Made by a program: the position numbers and the translations under genes
Shown here: positions 1 to 6,255 of the stretch, piece by piece
How positions within the stretch are numbered: position 1 is the stretch's first letter
Layout: each line of letters begins with the position of its first letter
Assembly (NCBI GenBank): GCA_016458225.1
Contig: JAEMGR010000005.1
Span: 806,001 to 870,000, forward strand
From: Myxococcaceae bacterium JPH2
GTDB taxonomy: Bacteria > Myxococcota > Myxococcia > Myxococcales > Myxococcaceae
Reading direction: 5' to 3'
Length of the DNA stretch: 64,000 nucleotides
Notes under the pieces: model-generated
What the model was told of the DNA's origin: nothing
The model's database searches: none
What the model saw: only the letters and a program-made list of their open reading frames with translations

Positions 1-1104
1 CGGCGCGAGCCCCGGGTCCGTCCGAGTGGGCACGTTGACGTAGAAGCTCGGGTCCTCCGGCACACGGAAGCGCTCGAAGATGTCCTCGAACGAACCTCGG
101 TAGTCCCGACCGAACACGACGTTGTGGTGCAGGAGCCCTGGCACTCGCCGCTTCAAGCCCAGGTAGAGGAGGTAGGCGCTCGACGTGAAGCGCAGCGAGG
201 TGCGCCGCTTCAGCGGGGCGGCCTTCGGGTCCAGCAATGACTCGTAGGCATAGGGCAGGTCCGCGTTGCACAGCACCGCGTCCGCGCGAATCACTTCGCC
301 GCCCGCCAACCGCACGCCCGTGGCACGGCCGCCCTCCGTGAGGATGCGCTCCACGGGCGCGCCATAGCGGAAGCGCACACCCTCCTCGCGCCCCAGCCGC
401 TCCAGCGCGCGGGGAATGGCATACAGCCCGCCCTGGGGAAACCAGATGCCCACGCCCAGCTCCGTGAAGGGCAGCAGGCCGTACACGGCGGGAGACGCGT
501 ACGGGGACACGCCCAGGTACATCGTCTGGAAGGTCATCGCCGCGCGCAGCCGCTCGTCGCGGAAGAAGCGCGCCACGTCCGAGTACATGCGGCGGTGCGC
601 GCGCACGCGGAAGAGGCTCGCCAGCACGCGGGGCGACAGATAGTCCGTGAGCCCCGCGTAGTTGCGGCCCACCAGCCGGTCCAGGCTGATGCGGTACTGC
701 TCACGGCCCTGGGCCAGGAAGGCCAGGTAGCGCTGGTAGCTGCCGGGCTCCACGCGCTCCAGCTCGCGTCCCATGGCGCACAGCTCGGAGGTGAACGTGA
801 TGTGCGAGCCGTCGCGGAAGTGCACGCGGTAGTTCGGATCGCACCGCAGGAGCGTCAGGTAGTCCTCGATCCGCCGGCCAAGCGCGCGGAAGGTCTCCTC
901 GAACACCTCCGGCATCAACACGATGGTGGGGCCGATGTCCCACGTGAAGCCGTCCACCCGAAGCTGGTTGCAGCGCCCGCCGGGCCCCGCTGTCTTCTCC
1001 AGAACCTGGACGTCGAAGCCCTGGTGCGCGAGCCGCGCCGCCGCGGCCAGCCCGCCCACGCCCGCGCCCACCACCACCACGCTCGGCCTGTGGGGTCCGC
1101 TCAT
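1..1104 (-). CDS. crtI: CrtI-type phytoene desaturase (partial, runs off the window)
   Basis: FAD-dependent amine-oxidase-fold desaturase that introduces double bonds into phytoene-type carotenoids. Translating the minus strand from ATG at 1104 gives an uninterrupted frame to base 1. The N-terminus carries the dinucleotide-binding motif VVVVGAGVGGLAAA (about residues 9-22), followed by LEKTAGPGGRCNQ and DGFTWDIGPTIV, typical of CrtI enzymes. The start sits 7 nt after the crtE stop and has a GAGGA-like ribosome site inside the crtE end, so the two genes are probably one operon. The order crtE-crtI matches the start of the Myxococcus carotenoid operon, where one desaturase (CrtIb) follows crtE. 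Which of the two Myxococcus desaturases this is cannot be told from a partial protein. Confidence 0.9.
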   Translation of the reverse strand, partial: MSGPHRPSVVVVGAGVGGLAAAARLAHQGFDVQVLEKTAGPGGRCNQLRVDGFTWDIGPTIVLMPEVFEETFRALGRRIEDYLTLLRCDPNYRVHFRDGSHITFTSELCAMGRELERVEPGSYQRYLAFLAQGREQYRISLDRLVGRNYAGLTDYLSPRVLASLFRVRAHRRMYSDVARFFRDERLRAAMTFQTMYLGVSPYASPAVYGLLPFTELGVGIWFPQGGLYAIPRALERLGREEGVRFRYGAPVERILTEGGRATGVRLAGGEVIRADAVLCNADLPYAYESLLDPKAAPLKRRTSLRFTSSAYLLYLGLKRRVPGLLHHNVVFGRDYRGSFEDIFERFRVPEDPSFYVNVPTRTDPGLAP

Positions 1105-1111
1105 GACGTCC

Positions 1112-2197
1112 TCACGCGGCCCGGTACGTCAGCCGCTCGATGAGCGCGTCCAGCCGCTCGCGCATGCCTTGAGGATTGGGGAGCCCCCGGAGCGCACGAC
1201 GCGCGGCGCGAGAGCACTGCTCCACCCGCCGCTCACACGCGGCACGGCCCCCATGGAACTCCACCAGCGCCCGGGCCCGAGCCACCGCGGCGGCGTCCTT
1301 CTCTTCCGCGGGCAGCGACCACAGGGCATCCAGCTCGGCGCGGCCCTCGGGCGAGGCGCGCGTGTACGCGGCCAGCACCGGGAAGGTGCGCTTGCCTTGG
1401 ACGAAGTCGCTGTCGCAGGACTTGCCCGCCACGCCCGAGTCGCCGAAGAGGCCCAGCAGGTCGTCGCGGAGCTGGTAGGCCAGCCCCACGTGGCGCCCCA
1501 CGCGCTCCAGTCCTTCCGTCAGCGCCTCGTCGCCACCCGCGAGCATGGCCCCGCACACCAACGGCGCGCAGAAGCCGTAGCGCGCCGTCTTCAAGTGCGC
1601 CACCCGCAGCGCCTGGAACAGCGTCACCTCGGACAGCGGCGCGCGCGACACCTCCAGGTCCAGGAACTGTCCCGCCGCGGTGTGCCGGCACACGCCCAGG
1701 TAGTAGCGCGCCACGTCCATGACGCCGGGCAGCCCACACTCGAGCAGCGCCTCCAGTGCCCGCGCGAAGAGGTGGTCCCCCATCACCACCGCCAGGTCCT
1801 CGCCCGCGCGCCCCGCCGCCAGCATCGAGTGCAGCGCGGGCCCACCTCGGCGCGTCGCCGCCTGGTCCGCCACATCGTCATGGATGAGCAGGAACGTGTG
1901 CAGCAGCTCCAGGCCCGCCGCGAAGCGCCACAGCTCCGGCGGCACCCCCGAGGTGCCCCGAGCCAGCCCATAGCCCGCCAGCACCAACGCGGGCCGCAGC
2001 CGCTTCGCCGGCCGCAGGGCATAGGCCCTCGCGCGCGCCCTCGCCTGGGTCCAGCGCTCGTCCAGGCCCACCTCGTCCGGCAGCTCGAACAGCTCCGCCA
2101 ACGAGGACTCCACCTGCCCCTGCACGCACTTCAGCCACGCCTGTTCGAGCGACGGCGCTTCACCCGCCGACTGCGCGTTGGGAGGCACGGGGGCCAT
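1112..2197 (-). CDS. crtE: Geranylgeranyl diphosphate synthase
   Basis: Polyprenyl synthase that makes geranylgeranyl diphosphate, the C20 precursor for carotenoids. Both aspartate-rich motifs are visible: LIHDDVAD (first DDxxD) and YQLRDDLLGLFGD (second). The GPALHSM and VMGDHLFARALE segments are also typical of the family. The frame is open up to a GTG at 2239. I prefer ATG at 2197 (MAPVPPNAQ) because a GAGG ribosome site precedes it, and because the likely promoter at 2245-2273 would leave almost no leader before 2239. The protein is about 361 residues, normal for the family. It is the first gene of the minus-strand operon, followed by crtI, and is probably controlled through the 11-bp repeat region upstream. 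Confidence 0.93.
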   Translation of the reverse strand: MAPVPPNAQSAGEAPSLEQAWLKCVQGQVESSLAELFELPDEVGLDERWTQARARARAYALRPAKRLRPALVLAGYGLARGTSGVPPELWRFAAGLELLHTFLLIHDDVADQAATRRGGPALHSMLAAGRAGEDLAVVMGDHLFARALEALLECGLPGVMDVARYYLGVCRHTAAGQFLDLEVSRAPLSEVTLFQALRVAHLKTARYGFCAPLVCGAMLAGGDEALTEGLERVGRHVGLAYQLRDDLLGLFGDSGVAGKSCDSDFVQGKRTFPVLAAYTRASPEGRAELDALWSLPAEEKDAAAVARARALVEFHGGRAACERRVEQCSRAARRALRGLPNPQGMRERLDALIERLTYRAA

Positions 2198-2244
2198 GCG
2201 GCGGACCTCACGGAAGAGAGGACGGACTGCGGCCTTCACCCCAG

Positions 2245-2306
2245 AGGTAGCGTTTGCGTCTAGCGCTTGTCAAGACTATGTCCAATGTTTGTTTCAACCC
2301 TGTACA
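2245..2306 (-). promoter_or_regulatory. Promoter and CarH/CarA-like operator of the crt operon
   Basis: Reading the minus strand there is a perfect -35 TTGACA (2268-2273), a 17-nt spacer and a -10-like CTACCT (2245-2250). Upstream, four half-sites sit exactly 11 bp apart: TGTACA (2301-2306), GAAACA (2290-2295), TGGACA (2279-2284) and TTGACA itself. All end in ACA and the last overlaps the -35. In known B12-dependent CarH photoreceptors, 11-bp direct repeats running into the -35 form the operator, and Myxococcus crt operons are repressed by CarA/CarH in the dark. The repeats are seen; the regulator is inferred. Confidence 0.55.
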
Positions 2307-2319
2307 GAGGAGTGCCCCG

Positions 2320-2868
2320 ATGAAGACGTGGCTGGCTGGCGTGCTCTCGGCGACCCTGGCGGCGGGAGGAGTCCCTGTCTCGGGCCCCCGGGACGCGACG
2401 TTGCGCGGTTCGAGCGGGGCGGAGGTGAAGCTGTCCCGCTGGCGAGGCAAGCCGGTCATCCTCTTCTACGAGGACCGGGACTCCACCACGCTCAACGCGG
2501 CCTTGAAGGAAGAGCTGTTCGCCAAGGGCCGCGAGCACGGGCTCTTGAGCGCCGCGTGGGTGGTGGCGGTCGCGAACCTCCAGCGCTACGACTTCTTCCC
2601 CGCTCGGCAGATCGCCCTCTCCTACGTGCGCGACGAGGAGAAGAAGGTCGGAATCCCCATCCTCGTGGACCTGGACGGGACGCTGGGCCGGGCGCCGTGG
2701 GAGCTGCCCACCAAGACCTCCAACGTGCTGCTCCTGGACGCCACCGGCGCCGTCGTCTTCCAGCACGCCGGGCGGATGAAGCCCGAGGAGCGCGCGGCCT
2801 TCTTCGTCCAGCTCGGCACCTTGGTGGGGCAGGACCTGGGACAGCCCGCGCCAGGACCCACCCCGTGA
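2320..2868 (+). CDS. Secreted thioredoxin-fold protein without a CxxC pair
   Basis: A 182-residue protein beginning MKTWLAGVLSATLAAGG, a probable signal peptide. The body resembles the thioredoxin/peroxiredoxin fold (GKPVILFYEDRDS, then LLLDATGAVVFQHAG near the C-terminus). The place where a CxxC motif would sit reads YEDRDS, so no redox cysteine pair is present and catalysis by thiol exchange is unlikely. ATG at 2320 is chosen because GAGGAG lies just upstream and the signal peptide starts there; the frame itself extends to 2254. The gene diverges from crtE and shares its regulatory region. Its GTGA stop region overlaps the next gene by 4 nt, suggesting translational coupling. The role is unknown. 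Confidence 0.75.
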   Translation: MKTWLAGVLSATLAAGGVPVSGPRDATLRGSSGAEVKLSRWRGKPVILFYEDRDSTTLNAALKEELFAKGREHGLLSAAWVVAVANLQRYDFFPARQIALSYVRDEEKKVGIPILVDLDGTLGRAPWELPTKTSNVLLLDATGAVVFQHAGRMKPEERAAFFVQLGTLVGQDLGQPAPGPTP

Positions 2869-3782
2869 AGGTCGCCGTCACCGGCGCGAGCGGCTTCCTG
2901 GGCGCTCGACTTGTTCAGCGTTTGTGCGAGGTGGGGCATGAGGTCCACGTCCTCTCGCGCAACCTTGAACGAACCCTGGCCAGTCTTCCGGCAGGCGTCA
3001 CGGGGACCTGCTGGGTGGGGCCGGAGGTGCCTGAAGGCGCGCTGGTGGGAGCGGAGGCCGTGGTGCATCTGGCCGGTGAGCCGGTGGATCAACGGTGGAC
3101 GCACGAGGCGAAGCAGCGCATCCACGACAGCCGCGTGTTCGGCACGCGGGCCGTGGTGGACGCGATGGTGCGCGGGGGGACGGCGCGGCGGTTCGTGTCG
3201 GCGTCCGCGGTGGGCTACTACGGCGGCGCGCGGGAGGCACAGCCGCTGACCGAGTCCCATGCTCCGGGCGACGACTTCCTCGCGCGCGTGTGTCAGGCCT
3301 GGGAGACGGAGGCCCTGCGGGCGCGAGCCACGGGCGTGGCCACCGCGGTGCTGCGCATCGGCGTGGTGCTGCACCCCTCGGGCGGCGCGCTGCATCGGAT
3401 GCTGCCGCTGTTCCGCGTGGGGGCGGGCGGGCGCGTGGGCTCAGGGTTGCAGTACGTGAGCTGGGTGCACCGCGAGGACCTCGTGGAGCTGCTGCGATTC
3501 ACCCTAGAGCATCCGGAGCTGGAGGGCGCGCTCAACGCCACGTCCCCCGTGCCCGTGACGAACACCGAGTTCGCGCATGCGCTGGGCCGCGTGATGGAGC
3601 GCCCGTCCGGAATGCACGTGCCGGGCATCGTGCTCAAGGCCCGCTTCGGAGAGATGGCGCGCGTGGTGCTGGAGGGCCAGCGGGTGCTGCCGGCGCGCGC
3701 GCTGGAAGCAGGCTTCGTCTTTCAACACCCCGAGCTGGAAGCCGCGCTGAGGGACCTGCTGGGACCGGCCGCGCTCGCATAG
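2865..3782 (+). CDS. TIGR01777-family NAD-dependent epimerase (SDR39U1-like)
   Basis: Extended short-chain dehydrogenase of the TIGR01777/YfcH type. The Rossmann motif TGASGFLG is at residues 5-12, then VVHLAGEPV, the segment SASAVGYYG and a DUF1731-like C-terminus ending in RALEAGFVFQHPELEAAL. About 305 residues, the family norm. The GTG start at 2865 overlaps the stop of the preceding gene (GTGA), and no ATG upstream gives family-like sequence. These proteins are widespread, but their substrate is not settled. It forms a tight plus-strand group with the thioredoxin-like gene before and the esterase after. Confidence 0.9.
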   Translation: MKVAVTGASGFLGARLVQRLCEVGHEVHVLSRNLERTLASLPAGVTGTCWVGPEVPEGALVGAEAVVHLAGEPVDQRWTHEAKQRIHDSRVFGTRAVVDAMVRGGTARRFVSASAVGYYGGAREAQPLTESHAPGDDFLARVCQAWETEALRARATGVATAVLRIGVVLHPSGGALHRMLPLFRVGAGGRVGSGLQYVSWVHREDLVELLRFTLEHPELEGALNATSPVPVTNTEFAHALGRVMERPSGMHVPGIVLKARFGEMARVVLEGQRVLPARALEAGFVFQHPELEAALRDLLGPAALA

Positions 3783-3794
3783 GGTTGTCCGCGC

Positions 3795-4832
3795 ATGGAC
3801 GCGAAGCGCACCCCGGTCATCGACGGCGACACGGCGACGTTCCTCTGGCGCGGGCGCGGCGGCGTGCGCGTGCACGGCGACTTCCAGGACTGGCAGGGCG
3901 AGCCTCTTCCCCTGGAGCGCGTGGGCCCCAACCTGTGGGCGCGAACGCTGACGCTGCCTCGGGATGCCTACGTGGAGTATGCGCTCTTCGACGCGCACGG
4001 CCGCCGCGTGAGGGATCCGCTCAACCCCCGCGTCTCGGACAACGGCTTCGGCGACGAGAACCACTGCTTCTACATGCCCGAGGGCGGCCCCACGCCGTTC
4101 GCGCGGCGACTCCCCGGCGTGCCGCGCGGACAGCTGACTCGGCACACGGTGGAGACGGGGGACCAGGCCGTGGGCGCGCGCCGCGCGGTGACGCTCTACG
4201 CGCCACCCGTGACAGGCCCCGTACCGTTGGTGGTGGTGCTGGATGGAGAGGATTACCTGCGGCGCGCGCGGCTGCCCGTGCTGGTGGACAACCTCATCGC
4301 GCAGCAGCGCATGCGTCCCGTGGCGCTGGCCTTCGTCTCCAACGGCGCCGAGGCCCGCACGCCCGAGTACACGTGCAGCGAGGCCACCGTGCGCTTCCTG
4401 CTCAACGCCGTGCTCCCCCTGGCGCGGCGCGAGCTGCCCCTCCTGGATGAGCGCGCGCATCCGGGAGCCCACGCGGTGCTCGGCGCGTCCTATGGCGGCC
4501 TCATGGCCCTCTTCGCCGCCCAGCGCGCGCCGGAGGTCTTCGGTCACGTGCTGGCGCAGTCCGGCGCGTACGCACTGGATGGCTGGGACTTCGTCGTCTT
4601 CGAGCTGGCCCGGCGCCCCCACCAGCGCCCCCTCTCCGTCTGGATGGACTGCGGCGGCTTCGAGGGGCTCCTGGAGGGCAACCGACGCATCGCGCCGCTG
4701 CTGACCTCGGCCGGTCACCGGGTGGCGCTCCGGGAGTACAGCGGCGGCCACAACTATCCTGCCTGGCGGGACGACCTCCCCCACGGGCTGGCGTTTATTT
4801 TCCCACATCCACCCACTTCCCGTTCGGAATGA
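3795..4832 (+). CDS. Enterochelin-esterase-like alpha/beta hydrolase with N-terminal Ig-like module
   Basis: A 345-residue hydrolase of the putative esterase (Esterase D/Fes) family. Residues 1-90 look like the carbohydrate-module-48-like domain found in Fes enzymes (VRVHGDFQDW, then YVEYALFDAHGRRVRDPLNP). The catalytic domain shows LVVVLDGEDYL, the nucleophile elbow GASYGG (Ser) and a C-terminal GGHNYPAWRDD supplying the His. Fes-type enzymes hydrolyse trilactone siderophores, but this subfamily includes general esterases, so the substrate is not assigned. No signal peptide is seen. It starts 12 nt after the epimerase gene, so the genes are probably co-transcribed. Confidence 0.85.
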   Translation: MDAKRTPVIDGDTATFLWRGRGGVRVHGDFQDWQGEPLPLERVGPNLWARTLTLPRDAYVEYALFDAHGRRVRDPLNPRVSDNGFGDENHCFYMPEGGPTPFARRLPGVPRGQLTRHTVETGDQAVGARRAVTLYAPPVTGPVPLVVVLDGEDYLRRARLPVLVDNLIAQQRMRPVALAFVSNGAEARTPEYTCSEATVRFLLNAVLPLARRELPLLDERAHPGAHAVLGASYGGLMALFAAQRAPEVFGHVLAQSGAYALDGWDFVVFELARRPHQRPLSVWMDCGGFEGLLEGNRRIAPLLTSAGHRVALREYSGGHNYPAWRDDLPHGLAFIFPHPPTSRSE

Positions 4833-4920: not shown

Positions 4921-5595
4921 ATGTCCCGCGTCGATGGTGGCAACCGCCCCCCCTCCTCGTCGAGGCGCCCGGAAACGGAGCGCCCCGAGCGGGGTGACGT
5001 GTCGCGCGAGAAGAAGCCCGAGGCACCGGCCGCGCGGCCCACCGGCGCCAAGTCCCAGGCGCCCACCGGCGCCAAGTCCCAGGCGCCCACCGGCGCCCAG
5101 TCCAAAGAAGTGATGTCGAACCAGACGATGCGTCCCTTTCAAGGGCGGAGCGACTTCGAACCCGCCCGCCCCACCGCGCGGCCCACGCCGCCGGCCCGTC
5201 CCGCCATCTCTCCGGCGGACGCCGAATCCATTGCCCAGGCCGACGCGGAGCTGGGCCTCCTCGAAGAGTTCCCGGACCAGGACGCGCAGGGCGGTCTGGC
5301 GTCCGCGATGCTGCACGCGCACTCGGATGCGCCGGTGTCGCAGAACCGCATCGTGGAGCGGCTGAAGCAGGACGGTCGCCTGGAGGCCCTCTTCGGCGAG
5401 GTGTTCCGCGACGGCAATCCCTACGTGGAGCAGCCGCACCGCAAGGCCATCGTGCGCGCGCTCGACACGGCGATGGAGCGCGGCACCGTCACGACGGACG
5501 ACATCAAGGCCTTCGCGCGTGGTGCCTACGCTCAGGAGTGGCGCGAGATTGGCGCCGCGCTCGGCGGCACGGCGCAGCCCGCGAAGGTGAAGTAG
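4921..5595 (+). CDS. Hypothetical protein with Pro/Ser-rich repeat N-terminus
   Basis: A 224-residue protein that I do not recognise. Residues 1-100 are low-complexity (Ser, Arg, Pro, Ala) and contain the tandem peptide TGAKSQAP repeated two and a half times. Residues 100-224 look folded and helical (DAELGLLEEFPDQDAQGG, FGEVFRDGNPYVEQPHR, KAFARGAYAQEWREIG). ATG at 4921 is chosen over the upstream in-frame codon at 4867 because CGGAG precedes it. No signal peptide or membrane segment. It lies between the esterase and a convergent gene. Confidence 0.65.
   Translation: MSRVDGGNRPPSSSRRPETERPERGDVSREKKPEAPAARPTGAKSQAPTGAKSQAPTGAQSKEVMSNQTMRPFQGRSDFEPARPTARPTPPARPAISPADAESIAQADAELGLLEEFPDQDAQGGLASAMLHAHSDAPVSQNRIVERLKQDGRLEALFGEVFRDGNPYVEQPHRKAIVRALDTAMERGTVTTDDIKAFARGAYAQEWREIGAALGGTAQPAKVK
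5041..5103 (+). repeat. 24-bp in-frame tandem repeat
   Basis: Two exact copies of a 24-bp unit (5041-5064, 5065-5088) beginning ACCGGCGCCAAGTCCC, and a partial third copy with one change (5089-5103). It encodes the TGAKSQAP peptide repeats of the surrounding gene. Such in-frame repeats can change copy number by slippage. Confidence 0.9.
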
Positions 5596-5607
5596 CAGCG
5601 CCCGCGG

Positions 5608-6255
5608 TTACCGCGCCACCATCGGGAGCCGCCGCACCAGCGCGCTCCGCACGGCCTGCGTGACCGCGTCCGCGTCCGCGCTGAGCTCCTCGGGCATCCA
5701 GAAGTAGAGCACCCGCTCCTCCACCTCCACCTGGGACCGCACGCAGCGCAGTCCGTCGATCTCCGCGCGCTCCGGGCTCTCGGGCAGGCACTGCTTGCAC
5801 AGGCAGGGCAGCGGCGCGCCCGTCCCATGCGCGGTGAGGTTGATGGCGGGGCGCGAGCCCTTCGCGGCCTGCAGCAGGCTCGCGGCGTCCTCGGCGGTCA
5901 GCGCGCGCGGCGTCTGGAGCGACATGCCCAGGGCGCCCTTCGCGGCCTGGATTCCCTTGCCGGATGCGAAGCGGATGCTCGGGATGAGCGAGGTGACGTC
6001 GGTGATGGGGATGCGGTTGGCTGATGAGCGCCAGCCATCGTCATCCTGCTCGGGTGAGCGCAGCACGGCCACCAGCCACAGCGCCTCGTCCGGCGGACGC
6101 ACCGTCACGAGGAACAGGTTCCCGCCCGCTTCGAGCGGCTCCAAGGCGCGGCTGTTGCTGCGGTAGACGTCCAGCGGCAGCACGTCGCCGGGGGAGAGGC
6201 CCGCCGCCTGCTTCTCGAAGATGGCCTTGCTGATGATGGCCAGCATGTCAGGCAT
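5608..6255 (-). CDS. Conserved hypothetical protein with CxCxxC motif
   Basis: About 215 residues, not recognised. It begins MPDMLAIISKAIFEKQ. ATG at 6255 or 6246 are both possible and neither has a strong ribosome site. The upstream extension to 6522 in this frame is Arg/Ser-rich shadow sequence. The middle is beta-rich (NLFLVTVRPPDEALWLVAVLR). A CLCKQCLP motif near the centre could bind a metal or form disulfides. The end reads VEERVLYFWMPEELSADADAV. No signal peptide. It converges with the preceding hypothetical gene and its start is only 37 nt from the divergent HEAT-repeat gene. Confidence 0.65.
   Translation of the reverse strand: MPDMLAIISKAIFEKQAAGLSPGDVLPLDVYRSNSRALEPLEAGGNLFLVTVRPPDEALWLVAVLRSPEQDDDGWRSSANRIPITDVTSLIPSIRFASGKGIQAAKGALGMSLQTPRALTAEDAASLLQAAKGSRPAINLTAHGTGAPLPCLCKQCLPESPERAEIDGLRCVRSQVEVEERVLYFWMPEELSADADAVTQAVRSALVRRLPMVAR

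Follow-up and report, generated by a model that had tools for sequence, protein, structure and literature searches.

The tandem 11-bp repeats ahead of crtE in the analysed window (the whole stretch of 64,000 nucleotides) very probably constitute the operator of the crtE-...-orf9-carH carotenoid operon, repressed in the dark by AdoCbl-loaded CarH and released by light, in a circuit that would resemble a natural carA deletion and in which the target of CarS would be CarH. Judged by its sequence, the operator is of the known Pcrt type of Cystobacterineae, now encountered in a further genus, Citreicoccus; the JPH2 genome represents a second species of this genus, beside C. inhibens M34, and the type of switch is already known in myxobacteria. 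The operator itself adds one more genus to a well-studied series, and its value lies in the setting: in Citreicoccus carA is being erased while carQRS, carF and an operator of the Myxococcus type persist. The genus becomes a second CarA-less case next to Cystobacter/Melittangium, one in which a remnant of the gene survives.

The original prediction placed four minus-strand half-sites (TGTACA, GAAACA, TGGACA and TTGACA) at exact 11-bp steps, and their start coordinates, 2306, 2295, 2284 and 2273, confirm this spacing. The phase is continued by a degenerate fifth half-site, TAGACG (minus strand, start 2262), which was absent from that prediction. The elements on the crtE side are the following:

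2256..2310, minus strand: predicted CarH operator at Pcrt, DR1-dr2-DR3-DR4-dr5, five tandem 11-bp repeats, 55 bp (sequence, conservation, layout as in PMC9304148)
2301..2306, minus strand: DR1 core TGTACA (sequence)
2290..2295, minus strand: dr2 core GAAACA, without the T of TnnACA (sequence)
2279..2284, minus strand: DR3 core TGGACA (sequence)
2268..2273, minus strand: DR4 core TTGACA, the -35 element of the crtE promoter (sequence; invariant in 63/63 core loci)
2257..2262, minus strand: dr5 core TAGACG (sequence and alignment of relatives)
2244..2249, minus strand: TACCTC, putative -10 element for crtE, 18 bp away from the -35 (its T, A and T are conserved at 0.94-0.98; fits the published footprint)
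1112..2197, minus strand: crtE, GGPP synthase, ATG at 2197 (open reading frame and profile evidence)
1..1104, minus strand: crtI-type phytoene desaturase, the second operon gene, which runs out of the window (TIGR02734, 513 bits, over the cut-off)

Cores 1, 3 and 4 (DR1, DR3 and DR4) fit TnnACA perfectly, and dr2 and dr5 are degenerate. The characteristic features of a CarH operator were found as follows: (i) 11-bp tandem repeats of the form nnnnTnnACAn, about three perfect and two degenerate; (ii) a -35 TTGACA embedded in DR4, ahead of crtE; (iii) a CarH with a MerR domain, Wx9EH and a D/ExHx2G motif, encoded at the operon end. The TTGACA half-site had been described as overlapping the -35; the two do coincide, yet TTGACA is the -35 element itself and not merely a neighbour that reaches into it. 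If the M. xanthus footprint, which extends from -70 to -19 (PMC8156234), is overlaid on the array, transcription would start at about 2237, with TTGACA at -36 to -31 and TACCTC at -12 to -7. An upstream GTG of crtE at 2239 lies at or above this putative start. A generic sigma-70 scan returned zero promoters on either strand, that of crtE included.

The array reaches a score of 15/16 consensus letters over four TnnACA cores, which was equalled in 0/20,000 shuffles (mononucleotide) of the intergenic region of 122 bp. An exact three-repeat scan of the window gave 0 matches and missed the operator because dr2 is without its T; it was replaced by scans with one mismatch permitted. With at most one mismatch, TnnACA-N5-TnnACA-N5-TnnACA has 3 matches in the 8.99-Mb genome, all of them overlapping registers of the operator, and the reversed-pattern control gave 1 + 1 matches. 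The three-repeat variant ending in TTGACA has a single genome match, the operator, with a control of 0.

Conservation was followed through the family. A crtE match at E<=1e-60 is present in 84/96 Myxococcaceae genomes, and the upstream region was examined in 82 loci. Two rows that repeat others (L075 for L017, L076 for L042) were dropped before counting, two genomes (G047 and G050) with crtE partial or at contig ends were left out, and in genomes with two crtE matches the copy near carH was taken where a carH neighbour was visible. Alignment upstream of crtE in relatives had been proposed as a check, with loss of the 11-bp phase as a refutation; the phase is kept, since at period 11 the best four-repeat score comes to 13/16 or more in 63/63 core crtE promoters, which span eight genera. 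None of the core loci (0/63) attains this score at the other periods tried (7-10 and 12-15) or on the other strand. DR3 and DR4 are both perfect in 62/63 core loci, and 39 of the 63 have their repeats in the order seen in the window (perfect, degenerate, perfect, perfect, degenerate). The idea that the array is a product of chance, or a simple A+T-rich promoter in which -35-like hexamers became phased by accident, can call upon the full TnnACA fit of only three of the five half-sites, but it is contradicted by this conservation, and the shuffles together with the uniqueness of the array in 9 Mb leave it virtually no credibility.

The TTGACA-type site is missing in 19/82 loci, all outside the eight core genera and mostly from metagenome-assembled genomes. 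The gene divergent from crtE is present in 15 of these 19 loci, and in 10 of the 15 it is separated from crtE by 60 bp or more. Five of these 10 scorable non-core loci have a period-11 array that scores at least 13/16, and two (L119 and L128) are without an array. In the deep Myxococcaceae loci L102, L107, L113, L114, L116, L117 and L121 a period-11 TnnACA-like array without TTGACA precedes crtE, and several of these arrays end in TGCAACG; their sequence suggests an operator of the CarH type combined with another promoter arrangement. In a locus of the Corallococcus genus (L043, genome G028) DR1 and dr2 are lost as TnnACA repeats, and a long inverted repeat (TGTCCAAGGTTT...AAACATTGGACA) occupies the place where they would lie.

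A Pcrt operator of the arrangement DR1-dr2-DR3-DR4-dr5, with the -35 in DR4, has been described for Myxococcus, Corallococcus coralloides and Stigmatella (PMC9304148). As in the Pcrt (PB) of M. xanthus and other Cystobacterineae (PMC9304148; PMC8156234), the Citreicoccus operator consists of five 11-bp repeats over about 55 bp in an equal order of perfect and degenerate copies, carries its TTGACA -35 inside DR4, and stands ahead of crtE in an operon ending in carH. In contrast to these operators, the letters of the repeats and spacers differ, and there is no functional CarA to share the operator. The match to the CarH operator design put forward in the original prediction is supported by the sequence, by the family-wide conservation of the phase and by a layout equal to that of published Pcrt operators (PMC9304148). 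With dr2 degenerate, the array nowhere has three perfect repeats in a row; published operators with one or two perfect repeats are still bound, and CarH homologues of all three myxobacterial suborders are able to substitute for M. xanthus CarH at Pcrt (PMC9304148). Tandem nnnnTnnACAn repeats overlapping promoter elements are likewise known from Thermus thermophilus (three repeats) and Bacillus megaterium (four), both cited in PMC9304148, whereas in Citreicoccus there are five, two of them degenerate.

At its end the carotenoid cluster encodes a single MerR-B12 protein (L011:5589-6500), which carries the motifs RAWERRY, WHAGLLTVAQEH (Wx9EH) and EQHEIG. By the published motif criterion this protein is an intact, B12-competent CarH; with the NCBIfam CarH profile it obtained 145 of 400 bits, below the cut-off, and the motif test was used instead. 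Each of the two Citreicoccus genomes has one CarH/A gene, and a tandem pair is found in the Myxococcus and Corallococcus genera. In a CarH tree of 40 rows (quick search), Citreicoccus groups with the Myxococcus/Corallococcus/Stigmatella side (SH-aLRT 91), with the fork drawn open. Two open reading frames downstream of carH (L011:4610-5650 and 5056-5928) were considered as a broken carH or carA and rejected, as their translations look out-of-frame; a Pfam search with the first of them gave no match.

The carQ, carR and carS genes are intact and adjacent in both Citreicoccus genomes, and carF is present in both. The Citreicoccus CarS matches PDB 2KSS (E 5e-31), and CarS was found in 68/96 family genomes. 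The PF06532 search for CarR yielded weak, incomplete matches across the family and was used solely to locate carQRS. The CarS matches in g5 (Corallococcus) end at residue 85-86 of 111, close to the endpoint of the constitutive M. xanthus carS1 mutant, which lacks 25 C-terminal residues (PMC8156234), and the Corallococcus CarS tails may be absent or diverged.

The array had been attributed to CarH and CarA together. The CarH part of this attribution stands, as the genome encodes a single intact CarH that carries both Wx9EH and the B12 motif, and the CarA part falls, as both species possess only a 3' carA stub, located between orf9 and carH. The stub is without a DNA-binding domain and has lost the B12 His. 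In JPH2 it comprises about 57 codons with the frame open (51% identity to CarA residues 232-288 of 288), and in C. inhibens about 129 residues with an in-frame TGA (42% identity). A CarA query of both genomes recovered only carH itself, the stub that directly precedes it and, as a third match, a distant part of a large B12 protein; an intact carA directly upstream of carH was found in neither. Between the two species the stub is identical at 164/175 positions, distributed over the codon positions as 54/58, 55/59 and 55/58 and therefore without a codon-position pattern, unlike carH, where 96.0, 98.7 and 88.4% of the respective positions are identical. Because the stub lacks the DNA-binding domain and shows no such pattern, carA was probably once present in Citreicoccus and then decayed. 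A short truncated product, without a DNA-binding domain, may still be made from the JPH2 stub. The stub region (L011:6501-6675, i.e. contig C5 799501-799675, outside the window, 175 bp) is 93.7% identical between the two species, more than the third codon positions of carH (88.4%) or crtE (87.0%), and, having no coding pattern, may contain a non-coding element, for instance a promoter of carH.

These data bear on a joint operator as in M. xanthus, where a B12-independent CarA would also repress in the dark and be lifted off by CarS. The operator layout is that of CarA-bearing genera and not the published CarA-less order dr1-DR2-DR3-DR4-dr5, and carQRS and carF are intact, as a joint circuit would have them; the state of the stub and the outcome of the CarA query in 2/2 genomes nevertheless make such sharing very improbable, and the sequence refutes it, save for the case that a complete carA sits in a gap of the 144-contig draft. 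A decay of the Pcrt inverted repeat AAGGTT-N6-AACCTT was also considered as a footprint of CarA loss. This repeat is imperfect in Citreicoccus (4 of 6 arm pairs, versus 6 of 6 in 15/16 g5 loci) and not diagnostic: the argument was rejected because CarA-bearing genera vary (2-4 arm pairs in g7, g2 and g3), because g19 ranges over 1-6 pairs, and because CarA has been suggested to read the direct repeats (PMC9304148).

The CarH-only circuit preferred here resembles that of Cystobacter/Melittangium (PMC9304148), with a single CarH, carQRS and carF kept, and carA missing at the orf9-carH junction; in that circuit the CarH dimer is inhibited by light and by CarS (PMC9304148). The differences relate to the operator, which in Cystobacter/Melittangium has the order dr1-DR2-DR3-DR4-dr5, to the junction and to the CarH lineage. 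In four genomes of genus g6, probably Cystobacter/Melittangium to judge from the operator type and the lone CarH, orf9 directly adjoins carH and a carA remnant is missing, whereas Citreicoccus keeps the stub and its CarH falls on the opposite side of the tree from that of g6. The 2022 survey is, in its available text, undecided for Cystobacter/Melittangium between a CarA that was lost and one never gained (PMC9304148). A search of the available literature found no paper on carA loss in Citreicoccus, and the same available text does not mention the genus.

Since carA is a stub while carH, carQRS and carF are intact, the operator should be CarH-only, with CarS possibly acting on CarH, and Citreicoccus should behave as a natural carA deletion. 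Binding in Citreicoccus, its dependence on light and B12, and the action of CarS are proposed here by analogy with close relatives. In the dark and with B12, AdoCbl-loaded CarH, the product of the last gene of the same operon, would bind the phased repeats along one face of the DNA and cover the -35 TTGACA, so that RNA polymerase would be kept out and the carotenoid genes would stay off. In the light AdoCbl would be split, CarH would fall apart and the operon would be expressed. With no CarA to hold the promoter when B12 is missing, expression should then be constitutive, as in the M. xanthus carA deletion and in Cystobacter (PMC9304148), and dark repression would occur solely in the presence of B12. 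In the light the antirepressor CarS would come from the carQRS operon, and it would act on CarH, the sole remaining target of the CarA/H type. Such an action is suggested by the binding of CarS to M. xanthus CarH, with lower affinity than to CarA (PMC8156234), and by the abolition of Cystobacter CarH binding by CarS (PMC9304148). The circuit predicts B12-dependent pigmentation in C. inhibens M34; the species description, in its available text, reports pale lemon-yellow colonies and a carotenoid cluster, and the terms 'light' and 'B12' do not occur in it.

The opposite side of the operator is occupied by a divergent gene, hitherto overlooked as a possible second CarH target. The elements on this side are:

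2320..2868, plus strand: divergent gene, YtfJ-like thioredoxin-fold protein without CxxC (PF09695, 12 family members)
2254..2259, plus strand: TTGCGT, within the spacer of the crtE promoter, a candidate -35 for the divergent gene (column conservation 0.91-0.98)
2277..2282, plus strand: TATGTC, which overlaps DR3, a candidate -10 for the divergent gene (T-5 and A-4, columns outside the repeat pattern, conserved at 0.98)
2307..2312, plus strand: GAGGAG ribosome-binding site of the divergent gene, overlapping the 11-mer of DR1 (sequence)
2865..3782, plus strand: SDR/DUF1731 gene, with a GTG start that overlaps the stop codon of the YtfJ-like gene (open reading frame; neighbour kept in named relatives)

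PF09695 (YtfJ) matches were obtained in 12/12 homologues of the divergent gene at E<=0.1, the best at 9e-7, with the copy of the window below the Pfam cut-off. A PDB sequence search with the divergent protein returned nothing significant.

One operator may serve two promoters, with the CarH array also repressing the YtfJ-like gene and the coupled SDR gene, an extension that would add to the CarH-only reading without replacing it and that we hold plausible, if a little short of probable. The original prediction had already allowed for a light response of the divergent gene, and its conserved place beside crtE and its candidate promoter make this more plausible. A homologue of the divergent gene lies beside crtE in 78/82 loci, always on the opposite strand, even at those without a TTGACA-type operator. 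Its ATG (2320) stands only 13 bp beyond the DR1 core, and its promoter must therefore sit in the operator or in crtE. Genus-weighted conservation reaches 0.96-1.0 at T-5, A-4, C-1 and CAA +17..+19 relative to TTGACA, columns that the repeats do not demand (0.96-0.98 over 8 genera for T-5, A-4 and CAA), and the conserved columns read TTGCGT-17-TATGTC on the plus strand, a candidate promoter inside the operator. Sorangium offers a precedent, with a pair of divergent promoters under a single CarH site (PMC9304148). However, the -10 candidate is without its last T, the generic promoter scan was empty on both strands, and the columns could owe their conservation to contacts with CarH or to the promoter of crtE. 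The available texts of PMC9304148 and PMC8156234 describe no such sharing for Cystobacterineae and do not name a YtfJ-like redoxin/SDR operon in the light response, and a search of the available literature found no expression data for the divergent gene.

A broader scenario is offered tentatively and with some doubt: a single CarH array may have long governed two divergent operons, one for carotenoids and one for the YtfJ-like redoxin and SDR, through much of the history of Myxococcaceae, and the Citreicoccus circuit may have been rewired after carA decay, CarH having become the target of CarS. The YtfJ-like gene, the SDR/DUF1731 gene and an esterase (2320-4832 of the window) form a block kept beside crtE in named relatives; with many contigs ending early, the SDR was found in 23 and the esterase in 21 of the 38 named crtE loci searched.
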